DNA from: Nitrospirota bacterium
GTDB taxonomy: Bacteria; Nitrospirota; Thermodesulfovibrionia; Thermodesulfovibrionales; UBA6898
Direction: 5' to 3'
Length of the DNA: 40,404 nucleotides
Assembly: GCA_021814475.1 (NCBI GenBank)
Contig: JAKAIE010000022.1
Span: 1 to 40,404 of the forward strand
The stretch's first letter is position 1; every line of letters begins with the position of its first letter. Below the pieces are notes generated by a model. That model had not been told where the DNA came from. It saw only the letters and a list, made by a program, of their open reading frames with translations, and ran no database searches. Both the position numbers and the translations under genes were made by a program. Shown here one piece after another: positions 13,608 to 18,546 of the stretch.

Positions 13608-14066
13608 TTATCCTCCGATGTAAGATTTTTCAAAGCTGGTTTGAAATTCGATGCCGTAGACGGCGCGGCATACGTTGTCGATGTAGACCAATACCACGCG
13701 GGTCAGCGTCAGGTCTTCTATATCCAGGCCGAATTTGCGGTTTGTAAGCACTGCCATCACGTCCTTGACGATCTTATAGGCGTCCTGTTTCGCCTCATCC
13801 CTTCCCCTCAGATTTTCCGCAGCTGCAAGGATCCTGAACGAGGGACGGAAGACGTAATTGATATTGTCCTGTTTTTCCGCCGGCATGTCCGACATGATGA
13901 CGAAAACGGCAGGGAAACTGACTGCCAGTACCTGTAGATCCGCTTCTCCGAACTGCTGTCCGGCATATCTCTCGCAGGTGGCTATATAGGACATATCCGG
14001 AGCTCCGGGCAAGGTCGGAGTTCTCAACTCTGTCAGGATGGCGTCTTCAATAGTTTCGAAGTCCAT
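13608..14066 (-). CDS. Mu gp37-like head-tail connector / tail terminator-type protein
   Basis: A 152-aa soluble protein starting MDFETIEDAILTELRT. Its length, the IEDAI-L-L start and the C-terminal VYIDNVCRAVYGIEFQTSF pattern match the Mu gp37 (DUF1834) family. It is placed as in Mu-like phages after the capsid and gp36. It probably acts at the head-tail junction or tail terminator ring. In Mu, gp36 and gp37 are neighbours; here the DGR and several small genes separate them. Confidence 0.75.
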   Translation of the reverse strand: MDFETIEDAILTELRTPTLPGAPDMSYIATCERYAGQQFGEADLQVLAVSFPAVFVIMSDMPAEKQDNINYVFRPSFRILAAAENLRGRDEAKQDAYKIVKDVMAVLTNRKFGLDIEDLTLTRVVLVYIDNVCRAVYGIEFQTSFEKSYIGG

Positions 14067-14070
14067 AGTC

Positions 14071-14220
14071 TTACCTCATCACCGTAGCCAGCGCGATCAA
14101 TGAAATAGCAAACAAGGCTCCCGAAATAGCAAGGCCCGAAAGAAGGATGACCTTCATCCCGCCTTCCCAGCTGGGGATATCAACATAGACGGCCTTCTTT
14201 TTCCAGTTGATGGATATCAC
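14071..14220 (-). CDS. Small single-pass membrane protein, 49 aa
   Basis: Starts at GTG 14220, overlapping the upstream stop (GTGA), and ends at 14071 just before the gp37-like start. About 22 residues of soluble N-terminus (WKKKAVYVDIPSWEGG) are followed by one hydrophobic helix (VILLSGLAISGALFAISLIALA). Coupling to both neighbours supports it as real. Function unknown. Confidence 0.6.
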   Translation of the reverse strand: MISINWKKKAVYVDIPSWEGGMKVILLSGLAISGALFAISLIALATVMR

Positions 14221-14501
14221 CGGATCATTTCCTCGGCCTCGGCAACGGTCAGGCCAACGCGGAAGAGTGTTGAAGTAGAATCCTCTCTCAGTTCCTGCTG
14301 AGTGCGGATACCATCCGAATCAACTACCCGATGCGTTGCGTCCTCTATCCCCGCGGCCCCATCAGCCAGGTCACCGGTCGAATACCAGCTGTATCTGTTA
14401 TCCAGCCAGTCGCGCAGCTTTGCCATCATCTCTGCGGGATATTCCTGCAGCAGGTAAAGCACGTCGGCCTTTGTGTTTATGTGCGTCGGAAAACCTTTCA
14501 T
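14217..14501 (-). CDS. Phage protein of unknown function, 94 aa
   Basis: The start at 14501 has AAGGAGGA nine bases upstream. N-terminal KADVLYLLQEYPAEMMAKLRDWLDNRY looks like a helical pair, and the C-terminal part is acidic and polar (LTVAEAEEMI). It follows the 101-aa DGR-linked gene in the same operon. No family is assigned. Confidence 0.62.
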   Translation of the reverse strand: MKGFPTHINTKADVLYLLQEYPAEMMAKLRDWLDNRYSWYSTGDLADGAAGIEDATHRVVDSDGIRTQQELREDSTSTLFRVGLTVAEAEEMIR

Positions 14502-14510
14502 CGTTCCTCC

Positions 14511-14816
14511 TTACGAAAATGTGTAGTACCTGTCGATCTTTTTGATCGTTGCCATAAACGGGATCTCGGCTTTGTATTTCTCCATCTGCTCGGTGAGAAC
14601 TGTGGATCCCGTAAAGAGCACATATCTCTGTCCGTCAATCTCGAATTGAAGCGTGAGGCATTTGGGAGAGCCGTCCTTTTTGAAACGGGAGGTCCTCACC
14701 TTCAGACCGACTACTGTGATCTCTTTGTTGATGATCTCATCGAGCCGCATTTTTGCGCCATCGAGGGGCAGGCTGTCCTTGTCCGCAAACTCGCTGAAAC
14801 GCTTAACCTGCTGCAC
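14511..14816 (-). CDS. DGR-linked beta-rich small protein (non-Avd), 101 aa
   Basis: Starts at GTG 14816 with AGGGGG seven bases upstream, overlapping the 3' end of the reverse transcriptase by 14 bases. It is therefore co-translated with it. The central sequence (ITVVGLKVRTSRF, KCLTLQFEIDG, YVLFTGSTVL, FMATIKKIDRYYTF) reads as five alternating strands with basic residues, like a small OB-type nucleic-acid-binding fold. The known DGR accessory Avd is an all-helical bundle, which this is not. A role as a single-strand-binding or cDNA-chaperone cofactor for retrohoming is an inference from coupling and fold impression only. Confidence 0.6.
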   Translation of the reverse strand: MQQVKRFSEFADKDSLPLDGAKMRLDEIINKEITVVGLKVRTSRFKKDGSPKCLTLQFEIDGQRYVLFTGSTVLTEQMEKYKAEIPFMATIKKIDRYYTFS

Positions 14817-15816
14817 AGATACCCCCTGCGATCTCGGCGATCCTGACGGACCGGGCCAGATTATGGGTATTGCCCCATTTGAGCCAGCCCATAATGGAGG
14901 CTACGGATGACCGCATCTGGTCGGGTGTTATCCTGCCAGATCTCAGCAGCCCCGGCAGCTCCCTGAGCCGTCTTTTGATCCTTGTGGCCGTTGACTTCCT
15001 GAGCAGCAGGTGATCGGCAAAGTGTTTGTAGCCGAGGAAGTCCACTCCCTGGGAGGTTGGATATACCTCGCAGCGGCTCATGAGGAACTTCAGTTTGTCC
15101 TGGAGGAAGGCCTTTATGAGGGCTGCGGTCTCATGCAGCCAGCCTTTGTCATCATGGAAGACGAGGAAGTCGTCGCAATAGCGGATGTAATGCCTGGCTT
15201 TGCGGAAATGCTTCAGGAACTGGTCCAGCTCGTTCATGTAGAGATTGCCGAACCACTGGCTTGTATAGTTGCCGATCGGCACGTTCTTCCCTCCGCCGAT
15301 GCTGTAGATGATATCCTGTAGCAGCCAGATAGTGTCAGGGCACTTGATCTTCCTCTTGACGATCGAGAAGAGCACGTCATGATTGACGGATGGGTAGAAC
15401 TTCGAAATGTCGCACTGAAGAACGTATTTGTTGCGCCTGACCATCTCCATTGTGCGACGGCTGCCGGCGTGGATCCCCTTGCCTTTGATGCATGCGTAAG
15501 AGTCGTGGATAAAGAGCCTCTGCCAGATCGGTTCCAGGACGTTCATCAGTGCATGATGGATGATCCTGTCCGGGGCGAAGGGCAGGATGAAGATCTCCCG
15601 GGTCTTGGGCTCGGTGATGATCTTTGTCTCATAGGGAGAGGTGTGAAACGTCTTGTTCAGAAGAAGATCCCGGATCAGCAGCAGATTGCCCTCGATGTCC
15701 TGGTCAAAGGCCTTGATTGCCCTCTGCCAGCTTTTTCCCTTGCGGGCGTTCCTGTAGGCAAGACGGAGGTTCTCCATGCCGGCTATTTCGGTGAAGAGAT
15801 CGCCGTGGCGCTTCAT
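14803..15816 (-). CDS. DGR reverse transcriptase
   Basis: A 337-aa reverse transcriptase of the group II-related DGR clade. Visible motifs in order: LPFAPDRIIHHAL (RT2 region, 78-90); CDISKFYPSVNH with catalytic D136; the DGR hallmark IGNYTSQ at 181-187; RYCDDF with D215 and D216; and GVDFLGYKHF near 257-266. It has no maturase or endonuclease domain, as expected for DGRs. The template repeat lies 120 bases upstream, a spacing that leaves room for the priming RNA. It would copy the template RNA with errors at adenines and feed the cDNA into the target gene. The Shine-Dalgarno site is weak. Confidence 0.96.
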   Translation of the reverse strand: MKRHGDLFTEIAGMENLRLAYRNARKGKSWQRAIKAFDQDIEGNLLLIRDLLLNKTFHTSPYETKIITEPKTREIFILPFAPDRIIHHALMNVLEPIWQRLFIHDSYACIKGKGIHAGSRRTMEMVRRNKYVLQCDISKFYPSVNHDVLFSIVKRKIKCPDTIWLLQDIIYSIGGGKNVPIGNYTSQWFGNLYMNELDQFLKHFRKARHYIRYCDDFLVFHDDKGWLHETAALIKAFLQDKLKFLMSRCEVYPTSQGVDFLGYKHFADHLLLRKSTATRIKRRLRELPGLLRSGRITPDQMRSSVASIMGWLKWGNTHNLARSVRIAEIAGGICAAG

Positions 15817-15936
15817 TGTATCTGAGACGGGTGACGTTCGCTTGCGCTACTGGCCACCCGCCTCCTCCGTAATGTATTCTGCCTTTCGGCAAGGCCGTCA
15901 GATCCAGCCAGGAGTTTCGCTCGACCAGATCCTGTA

Positions 15937-16050
15937 TCCGCCGCGAACCGCCTGCCGATATTCGTACTCGTATTCCAGCGCGCGTTATTCGCATTCCGGG
16001 CGCGGGAGCCGCAATTCGTCGCATTATTCCAATTCGCGCCGGCAAGCAGC
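15937..16050 (-). repeat. DGR template repeat (TR)
   Basis: 114 bp aligned without gaps to the variable repeat at an offset of 199. Of 25 template-strand adenines, 12 differ in the variable copy; no other base differs. Read in the target frame it holds nine AAY (Asn) codons, the usual DGR choice because mutated AAY cannot give a stop. Its 3' part on the minus strand (15938-15952) has no adenine and is G/C only, as expected for the initiation-of-homology segment. It is probably transcribed with the 120-base spacer to the reverse transcriptase. Confidence 0.97.
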
Positions 16051-16110: not shown

Positions 16111-16126
16111 GCGTGCAGCATCACGC
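16111..16126 (-). other. Short hairpin just past the variable repeat
   Basis: GCGTG, a 6-base loop and CACGC form a perfect 5-bp stem beginning at the last base of the target stop codon, 9 bases beyond the variable repeat. Several DGRs have a hairpin or cruciform at this place that promotes retrohoming. The stem here is shorter than the Bordetella one, so this is a candidate only. Confidence 0.4.
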
Positions 16127-17682
16127 TATACCGGCTCCGCCGCGAACCGCCCGCCGATAGTCGTACTCGTATACCAGCGCGCGTAAGCCGCAAACCGGGC
16201 GCGGGAGCCGCAATACGTCGCAATAGTCCAACTCGCGCCGGCAAGCAGCTTTGTGTCTCCCAAACTGCCCTGCCTATACAGCTGCCCCTTCGACCCCGGC
16301 AATGCATACCAGGAAAAGGCCGGAGTTGTAGAGGCCAGGTCGAGCGTTCCATTAGTGCTCGTCGGGCTGGTGAATTCGAGGCGATTGTGAGTTACGTCGT
16401 CATATTTGACAGCGACGCCGAGGGCAGCAGCATTTGAGGCATATTTGATCTGCAACAAAAACGCCGGATTACTGGTTGCAACATAGCAGTCTTGTCCGAG
16501 GACTGTATTGTTACAGAGCATGCGGCCAGGCTGTGTGGCGTCCTCATCAAAATATAACGGCAACCCTGTTGCTGCGTTGATATCGTTGGTGATCTGGACA
16601 ATATTGTTAGTGCCGAATGCCACAGTTTTATTAGCTCCCGCAGTGGAGAGGTTGGCGCAGAGATATGGCGTGCCGTCGCTAAAAAATTTGATATACAACT
16701 GATTGCCTTCCGGGACTGCCACGTGGGTGATCGTAGCTGTTTTGGACGCTGCAGTCACCGAGCCATCTGTGCCCAGCTGATAACCGTTTTCGTCCAGCCA
16801 CTGATACATAGCCCCGCAGCAGTCCTCCGCCCCCTCATACGAAATCATCCGGCGTCCCGCCGTATCTACATGCCCGCCCGTAGTGACCGGGTCCGCAGAT
16901 CCGGCTATGTTGGTCTGCTCATTAGAGCCTGCGGCATATCCCTGGAACTCTCTATCTTTTGTAAGCCGTTTGTTTACTGCCGCACCGTCATCGACGAAAT
17001 CCATGTGATTGCGTGTATCGCTGATAGTCGCTCCGTATGCAGAGCTTGTGTTTGCAGCAGTCCCTGATGCGAGATAAATGTCCACCCAGGCCCCGCCTGC
17101 CAAAAACGAATAAAACATACCCTCTGGATTGCGATTACGCGGCTTCCACTTGAGGTCCCATATGGAATTGGGCAAGACATCTCCGGTTTCAAAATCCTTC
17201 AGCGGATGATCTGCCCCAAGTGCAAGCGTCACCCCCGACGTAGTGATGCTCGTCCCTTTGCAAAGGCAGTGGAAACCCCCGATTTTCCTGGAGTTGCTGC
17301 TGGTGTACCCCGTGGGTACCGTAGAATTCGCAGAGAGCACGAACTTAGGGATCCCGCCGGGCTGCCGGCAGACGTAGAGATATATGTCCTTGCCGGCCCT
17401 GTTCGCCGCTACCGTGAGATCAACAGGAGTCAGTGTGTCCCAGTTCGCTGCAACGGAGAGATCCATAGCCTGTTGAGCCGTCAGGGCAAACCCGAGATCC
17501 GATATGTTGACGGTCAGCCGTGAAGGGCTCAATAGTGTGTACCTGTCAGCCGCAATACTGCTGCCTTTGAGTGCCCACCTGATATCCCTTTCGTAATGAG
17601 CCGGGAGCGCGGCCATCTGTGCAAGGAAGGACTTACCCCCGTCGTCTTTGTGCCACCCGTCTGCGCTGCTTTTCCAGCCCAT
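16126..17682 (-). CDS. DGR target protein (C-type-lectin-like variable C-terminus)
   Basis: A 518-aa protein starting 2 bases after the preceding stop. The N-terminal ~200 residues are mixed and tail-protein-like. Around 290-310 is GRRMISYEGAEDCCGAMYQW, a motif often seen just ahead of the lectin domain in DGR targets. The variable C-terminus (479-518) reads LLAGASW...CGSRAR...ARWY...IGGRFAAEPV, where the Trp, Gly-Ser-Arg and GGRF scaffold is fixed and ten residues vary from the template. There is no signal peptide. It is most likely a virion-borne receptor-binding or tropism protein, though it sits in the head-tail joining cluster rather than among tail fibres. Confidence 0.9.
   Translation of the reverse strand: MGWKSSADGWHKDDGGKSFLAQMAALPAHYERDIRWALKGSSIAADRYTLLSPSRLTVNISDLGFALTAQQAMDLSVAANWDTLTPVDLTVAANRAGKDIYLYVCRQPGGIPKFVLSANSTVPTGYTSSNSRKIGGFHCLCKGTSITTSGVTLALGADHPLKDFETGDVLPNSIWDLKWKPRNRNPEGMFYSFLAGGAWVDIYLASGTAANTSSAYGATISDTRNHMDFVDDGAAVNKRLTKDREFQGYAAGSNEQTNIAGSADPVTTGGHVDTAGRRMISYEGAEDCCGAMYQWLDENGYQLGTDGSVTAASKTATITHVAVPEGNQLYIKFFSDGTPYLCANLSTAGANKTVAFGTNNIVQITNDINAATGLPLYFDEDATQPGRMLCNNTVLGQDCYVATSNPAFLLQIKYASNAAALGVAVKYDDVTHNRLEFTSPTSTNGTLDLASTTPAFSWYALPGSKGQLYRQGSLGDTKLLAGASWTIATYCGSRARFAAYARWYTSTTIGGRFAAEPV
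16136..16249 (-). repeat. DGR variable repeat (VR)
   Basis: 114 bp at the 3' end of the target gene. Differences from the template, on the coding strand, are A to T six times, A to G three times and A to C three times. All nine Asn codons became Ser, Thr, Ile, Tyr, Phe, Ala, Tyr, Tyr and Thr, and one Arg became Gly. Fixed bases include every C, G and T of the template. Confidence 0.97.
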
Positions 17683-17683
17683 A

Positions 17684-18091
17684 TCAGTTGCACCTCAGCT
17701 TGATCGATGCGACGGTGCCGGCAGTGATCGTGCTCGTTACGTAGAGCCGCGAGGTCTGGCCGTCGAACTGGTACTTGAGCGTCTCGGCCGTGGCCGAGGA
17801 GATCGCCGCCCCGTCGATGGTTGATATCACATCCCCATCATCGTTGATCGTGAATGAGATATTGACAGTAGCCCCGGACGTAGTGATCAGCAACGATTTC
17901 GGCCCGTGGCAGTACTGGACGTTGACGGCTGTGTCGCTGTCACCCGTCGCTGCCTGGTTCGTGGCGAGGGTCCACTCAAATGCCGTGGGACGACTGGGGG
18001 GATTGAGGTCCTGAAAGTTGACGTCCGCTGCCGCGGCCATCGAGCCGGGCACAAGAAGCAGTAATACAAGCATAATCATAAGATGTTTCAT
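17684..18091 (-). CDS. Sec-exported phage protein next to the DGR target, 135 aa
   Basis: Starts at ATG 18091, overlapping the gp36-like stop. A signal peptide is clear (MIMLVLLLLVPGSMAAAA, cleavage near residue 22). The mature ~113 residues are beta-prone and Thr/Ser/Ala-rich with two cysteines (one in QYCHGPKS, one at the C-terminus in KLRCN). It directly precedes the DGR target in the same operon. A periplasmic or surface protein made during the lytic cycle is the plain reading; an odd virion protein is the alternative. No family recognised. Confidence 0.7.
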   Translation of the reverse strand: MKHLMIMLVLLLLVPGSMAAAADVNFQDLNPPSRPTAFEWTLATNQAATGDSDTAVNVQYCHGPKSLLITTSGATVNISFTINDDGDVISTIDGAAISSATAETLKYQFDGQTSRLYVTSTITAGTVASIKLRCN

Positions 18092-18546
18092 TAGTATCCC
18101 TCCATGTTCTCCCGGGTGAAGGTCCGGTCGCTCGTCGTTTTATTGGTCTGTGGCTGCCCCTCGCTCAGCGCGGCAGGGGCCGGATCTATACCGAGGGTTT
18201 TGATACCCTTTGCTATGTCTTTCAGCTGACTGATCGCCTTGTCGTAACGCGTCGAGATCTCATCAGGCACATTACGTCGTTTGTGGAGGTTATATACCGT
18301 GATCTCCACTGACAGCCGCTTAACTTCGTCAGGTACCGTCGTAAACGGTACAGAGTATTTAACCCCGCAGTAGCTGTTGATCTCCTGGTCAGCAGATGCG
18401 ATCGCGGCATTGACCCTTGAGATGATCAGTGCGCAACTGGGGTTCGCCGCATCGATCGATGCGGGCTTCAGCTGCTCGTCATCCGTCAGTTGTATAATCC
18501 TCGCCTGCGCCAGCTGGCCTTTTATGTCTTCGATAGTGCTGTACAT
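18091..18546 (-). CDS. Mu gp36-like head-tail connector (DUF1320)
   Basis: A 151-aa protein starting MYSTIEDIKGQL, following the major capsid gene as in Mu. The helical pattern (ISRVNAAIASADQEINSYCG, then SVEITVYNLHKRRN) is typical of the DUF1320/gp36 connector family that forms a ring under the portal. The C-terminal ~30 residues are polar and probably disordered. Confidence 0.85.
   Translation of the reverse strand: MYSTIEDIKGQLAQARIIQLTDDEQLKPASIDAANPSCALIISRVNAAIASADQEINSYCGVKYSVPFTTVPDEVKRLSVEITVYNLHKRRNVPDEISTRYDKAISQLKDIAKGIKTLGIDPAPAALSEGQPQTNKTTSDRTFTRENMEGY

Follow-up and report, generated by a model that had tools for sequence, protein, structure and literature searches.

What Avd does for the reverse transcriptases (RTs) of DGRs is known in detail only in BPP-1, where the spacer RNA brings in RT-Avd and also acts as primer, with cDNA starting from an internal adenine (PMC12875486). 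In complete genomes, an Avd-like neighbour co-occurs with 62% of DGR RTs, and about 38% are without one (PMC8934634). Here we analyse a DGR in which the RT gene runs into a gene for a small protein, SP. We propose that SP is likely to be a dedicated OB-like DGR accessory that stands in for Avd within one large phage DGR branch; its binding to RT and to nucleic acid, and the need for it in cDNA synthesis or retrohoming, are inferred.

The DGR cassette of the window

The DNA analysed, referred to below as the window, is a whole stretch of 40,404 nt from a Nitrospirota bacterium (GCA_021814475.1, contig JAKAIE010000022.1, positions 1-40,404, forward strand). The features of its DGR lie on the minus strand, in the order target gene with variable repeat (VR), template repeat (TR), spacer, RT and then SP. 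The target gene (16126-17682, minus strand) encodes 518 aa and matches the tail protein phrog_11262 and the second domain of Mtd (PF21916, 1.2e-16); the VR (16136-16249, minus strand) occupies its 3′ end and encodes the C-terminus of this same protein. The TR (15937-16050, minus strand) is 114 nt long and contains 25 adenines. Twelve of the 12 mismatches between TR and VR are on template A, changed to T, G or C, and because every mismatch falls on a template adenine, the cassette is a genuine DGR. The TR is separated from RT by a spacer of 120 nt (15817-15936, minus strand), for which a role is inferred by analogy with BPP-1. RT itself (14803-15816, minus strand, 337 aa) matches phrog_1423 (E 2.8e-116) and RVT_1 (PF00078), and it clusters with DGR RTs in the RT tree.

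The SP ORF (14511-14816, minus strand, 101 aa, GTG start) shares 14 nt with the RT ORF at the RT stop. The first-pass annotation had claimed such a 14-base overlap, together with the absence of avd from between target, template and RT, and both claims held. Indeed, no match to the Avd profiles was found in the window, and a search of the whole genome with NF033474, the NCBIfam model of Avd, gave no Avd either. This absence is informative, because NF033474 recovered Avd in all six control records (6/6). Two sub-cutoff matches to PF05635 (23S rRNA intervening-sequence protein) elsewhere in the genome (G000:C54:4410-4622 and G000:C83:16898-17104; L280 and L281, where L numbers denote our loci) were not taken as Avd, being in frames of ~230 aa unlinked to the DGR.

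The window looks like part of a Mu-like tailed phage or prophage. A Mu Gp37-like gene is at 13608-14066 and a Mu Gp36-like gene at 18091-18546. SP was absent from 100 genomes of host relatives, and also from 395 genomes of the phylum; the element is therefore mobile here. The gene next after SP (14217-14501, 94 aa) is a phage gene, conserved but without a known function, whose homologues are found directly after SP in L014 and directly after RT in L111, L134, L136, L142 and L143, which have no SP.

SP sequence and predicted fold

SP belongs to a family of about 135 homologues at below 85% identity. Its median dN/dS is 0.058 (24 close pairs), corresponding to strongly purifying selection, and the columns conserved across 135 diverse members include F6, G19, K21, S42, F67, T68, S70, L73, P85 and F86. 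The homologues, the dN/dS and a confident predicted fold rule out that SP is a chance ORF. No significant family for the SP of the window was found in Pfam, NCBIfam or PHROGs; SP did not match the Avd profiles (NF033474, PF05635), PF00570 and PF01624 were not among the Pfam matches of 66 SP members at E up to 1, and a PDB sequence profile search with SP was empty at E 10.

AlphaFold2, run with an alignment of 65 homologues, predicted a five-stranded barrel with a pLDDT of 91.2. The elements of the model (E31-41, E51-59, E62-68, H71-79, E86-93 and E96-99) follow the order b1-b2-b3-a-b4-b5, which is the OB order, with the helix sitting between strands 3 and 4. The top rows returned by VIA-align for this model were largely OB domains: the best was the OB domain (domain II) of RuvBL2 (Z 6.8), the Bartonella SSB 3lgj aligned over 68 residues (Z 6.1, rmsd 2.2), and further matches were to the SSBs 3koj and 5yyu, POT1, RPA and Teb1. 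All of these matches have Z below 8, at which the tool warns that scores may reflect a common arrangement, and they thus back the fold of SP and are not proof of kinship. Foldseek of the model against the PDB gave no E below 0.04. SP is, as predicted by the model, an OB-like beta barrel and not a helical Avd. The OB-like barrel proposed in the first-pass annotation therefore held as a predicted fold (AlphaFold2, VIA-align); no helical Avd-like fold, which would have spoken against that reading, was obtained. The basic residues it also mentioned held only in part: the SP of the window has a pI of 9.2, with 18 K+R versus 14 D+E, and the median pI of the family is 8.8, so that the basic character of SP is only mild.

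The family has a divergent branch, to which the unannotated phrog_19665 (L216 3816-4145) belongs, and this entry could be renamed. phrog_19665 matches L216 (5e-46), L219 (1e-30), an SP domain fused to RT in L239 (3e-11) and L172 (1e-9), and matches window-type SP only weakly (3e-6 at best). A further match of phrog_19665, within an ATPase of a related genome (L109), is spurious.

Distribution of SP, exclusion of Avd and fusions to RT

Pattern scans with the SP family alignment picked up 78 IMG/VR loci and a further 22 from genomes in GTDB. Annotated relatives of SP include those of ANMV-1 and of Methanosarcinales virus vir525, so archaeal viruses carry SP too. A DGR RT was present on the same stretch in 94 of the 101 scored SP loci. 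In three of the seven SP loci without RT (L013; L014, 6652-8291; L078, 6729-8204) SP adjoins a DGR-type target and RT has been lost, and these are apparent DGR relics. In L090, a probable relic, SP lies beside an apparent target remnant; in L048 and L074 it is at the edge of the contig or of the stored stretch, and the contig of L074 has an RT in L150; L091 is a broken locus, with an RT fragment on the strand opposite to SP. SP homologues are thus dedicated to DGRs. On the strength of this DGR-only context, including inspection of the RT-less L013, L014, L078 and L090, we reject the idea that SP is a general phage gene. Homologues found mainly in phages lacking DGRs would have refuted the first-pass reading; the survey did not find this.

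The association is also seen from the side of RT. In one RT-centred scan most loci had SP adjoining RT, and in a second, SP was separate in 71 of 82 loci and fused in 8 of 82. Where SP is downstream, it overlaps the RT stop in 164 of 188 loci, by a median of 14 nt. Mismatches between TR and VR are adenine-only in 171 of 181 SP loci, and the distances of RT and SP correlate (Mantel r 0.42; 0 of 2000 permutations).

SP and Avd exclude each other. Among 273 RT loci, which were not de-duplicated, 218 have a separate SP, 2 a fused SP and 11 an Avd; none has both. Searches of whole records found no Avd in 44 other records (SP, crAss-type or neither), versus six out of six Avd-type controls, and no SP in those Avd-type phage records that were searched. 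When 131 RTs of <72% identity were placed on a tree, the Avd rows grouped together as one clade (97*), and a single change suffices to explain the SP and Avd states, although the count of changes cannot say which of the two states came first. The RT sample was drawn around the RT of the window, and the natural share of SP and Avd types is therefore not given by these numbers. Neither accessory was recognised by the profiles used in about 15 of the 131 non-redundant RTs (the tree lists 17 as 'none', among which L209 and L219 carry a divergent SP). TR/VR pairs are intact and adenine-only despite the lack of either accessory in L111, L134, L142, L143, L146 and L191. In RTs with neither accessory, therefore, SP may not be needed, may be provided in trans or may have escaped recognition.

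The position of SP relative to RT varies. SP is mostly downstream, and precedes RT in MAGs of Alphaproteobacteria and in some phages. In six loci (L165, L170, L208, L209, L219 and L248) a divergent SP, detected only with an extra profile, lies between VR and TR, the slot that Avd occupies in BalMu-1 and ACA1. In two loci from metagenomic contigs the RT frame continues into an SP domain at the C-terminus (SP profile 9e-17 in L239 and 1e-12 in L212); these are clear RT-SP fusions. Avd exclusion, the single switch on the RT tree and these natural fusions go beyond what the first-pass annotation had noticed.

The RTs of crAss-like phages (cr55_1, C0526BW15, L200-L205) carry a terminal extension of 75-94 aa. 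HMMER missed any SP match in it, but profile-profile comparison of the extension with SP gave a probability of 35-60 and a score of 25-30, against 16.9 for the best of 60 column shuffles. A separate AlphaFold2 model of the extension (pLDDT 79.8) has the same order of elements as SP, and the BFVD viral RT models A0A8S5RXI3 and A0A7M1RSL3 (cr7_1) are hit by the SP model and by that of the extension alike. The extension is likely to be a fused SP domain; because the match is remote, we call this fusion only probable. crAss-like DGRs have been described as being without avd (PMC7290462), and the built-in OB domain may therefore be their accessory.

Two further observations concern these loci. Some crAss-type RT frames contain stops under code 11 (L190 3184-3969, L288, L291 and L293), which are likely to reflect stop-codon reassignment. 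Small VR-type target paralogues of 130-180 aa with ends of the form 'SGF...GSRLCF' are present upstream of RT (L219 1070-1474; L248 1032-1888; L279 1365-2219; L169 2256-2807), in tandem in L248 and L279.

Putative role of SP and known systems

The case for SP rests on the cassette, the restriction to DGRs, the Avd exclusion and the fusions, all of which are shown here, and on a fold that is a model prediction. An early, Avd-like role is suggested by the operon coupling, the Avd exclusion, the copies in the avd slot and the fusions. In the proposed mechanism, SP and RT would be made from one operon via translational coupling, and SP would probably sit on the C-terminal side of RT. There it may bind RT together with a single-stranded nucleic acid component of the DGR ribonucleoprotein, putatively either the TR-spacer RNA, which is structured, or the cDNA as it is made; the OB surface would hold this ligand at RT. 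By analogy with the RT-Avd complex of BPP-1, SP would let the mutagenic cDNA be primed and made. A bolder reading, which we would neither favour nor dismiss, is that the OB-fold module is a second widespread class of DGR accessory, swapped with the helical Avd once in RT evolution, in a direction that is undetermined, and occurring downstream of RT as a coupled gene, upstream of it, in the avd slot and as an RT C-terminal fusion, including that of crAss-like phages.

The main rival explanation, which remains possible, is that SP is a DGR-dedicated chaperone of single-stranded DNA that acts on the cDNA after reverse transcription, protecting or delivering the mutated copy, and that RT alone carries out the step of Avd. 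The nearest solved folds, which include SSBs (3lgj, 3koj, 5yyu), RPA, POT1 and Teb1, are in its favour, and in BPP-1 the handling of the cDNA does act as a point of control, with ExoI inhibiting retrohoming (PMC12875486). However, the exclusion of Avd and the position in the avd slot suggest that the early step of Avd is what is replaced, and the fusion to the C-terminal end of RT points to a site of action at the polymerase, although none of this excludes the chaperone. It is, in contrast, very unlikely that SP has no part in retrohoming, being either an ordinary tail- or lysis-region gene found after RT by chance or a regulator of RT. In favour of this reading are the small size of SP, its lack of an annotated family, its place among tail genes and the existence of DGRs within the same RT clade that are without it. 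Yet SP also precedes RT in Alphaproteobacteria MAGs, lies between VR and TR in other phages and occurs fused to RT, and the gene that follows it persists where SP is missing; SP therefore comes and goes with RT and not with the neighbourhood.

A different objection is that SP could be the third accessory that Wu et al. (2018) noted, in which case the association would be known already and the fold, the fusion and the breadth would be what is added. Among the proteins that they associated with DGRs is one lacking an assignment in Pfam or CDD (PMC10053308), and SP likewise has none. On the other hand, crAss-like DGRs, with their probable SP fusion, are described as being without any accessory in a study that uses Wu's classes (PMC7290462). 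In the absence of a sequence comparison we lean, without much confidence, against this identity. The first-pass suggestion of a new type of DGR cofactor thus stands in part: a cofactor role is supported by the genomics and the fold and has not been measured, and novelty cannot be certified given the Wu et al. accessory.

If SP is indeed the accessory that replaces Avd, an unrelated fold in the role of Avd would show that the essential part is the binding of RNA or RT and not the helical bundle. SP would then be the missing partner of many 'accessory-less' DGRs, including those with probable RT fusions in crAss-like gut phages. It would also provide RT-accessory units that are compact, and possibly made of a single chain, for use in reconstitution and protein diversification.

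No OB-fold accessory of DGRs was reported in the literature we searched. The HRDC-domain (PF00570) and MutS-like MSL (PF01624) accessories (Wu et al. 2018, via PMC10053308) are, like SP, non-Avd genes tied to DGR RTs, but SP has no match to either of these families at E up to 1; the unassigned accessory of the same study shares with SP its DGR association and its lack of Pfam or CDD assignment. phrog_19665, which contains the divergent SP branch, is given no DGR link in PHROGs. OB-fold binders of single-stranded nucleic acid (bacterial SSB, RPA, POT1 and Teb1) have the fold and strand order predicted for SP (Z 4.5-6.1, rmsd 2.2-3.6), whereas they show no sequence similarity to SP, which has about 100 aa and is tied to DGR cassettes. 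Small ORFs next to RT have been labelled Avd or Avd-like in ANMV-1 (Paul et al. 2015) and, by charge and size, in a study of Bacteroides phages (PMC6199706), and it is possible that these labels cover SP genes. The Avd of BPP-1 and its relatives (NF033474) is, like SP, a basic protein of about 100-130 aa, of which each cassette has one, next to the DGR RT. The fold of Avd is a four-helix bundle and its sequence matches NF033474, whereas SP is a predicted OB-like barrel without such a match, and unlike Avd, SP usually lies downstream of RT and overlaps it. The two are never found together, and the divergent SP branch shares the slot of Avd between VR and TR.
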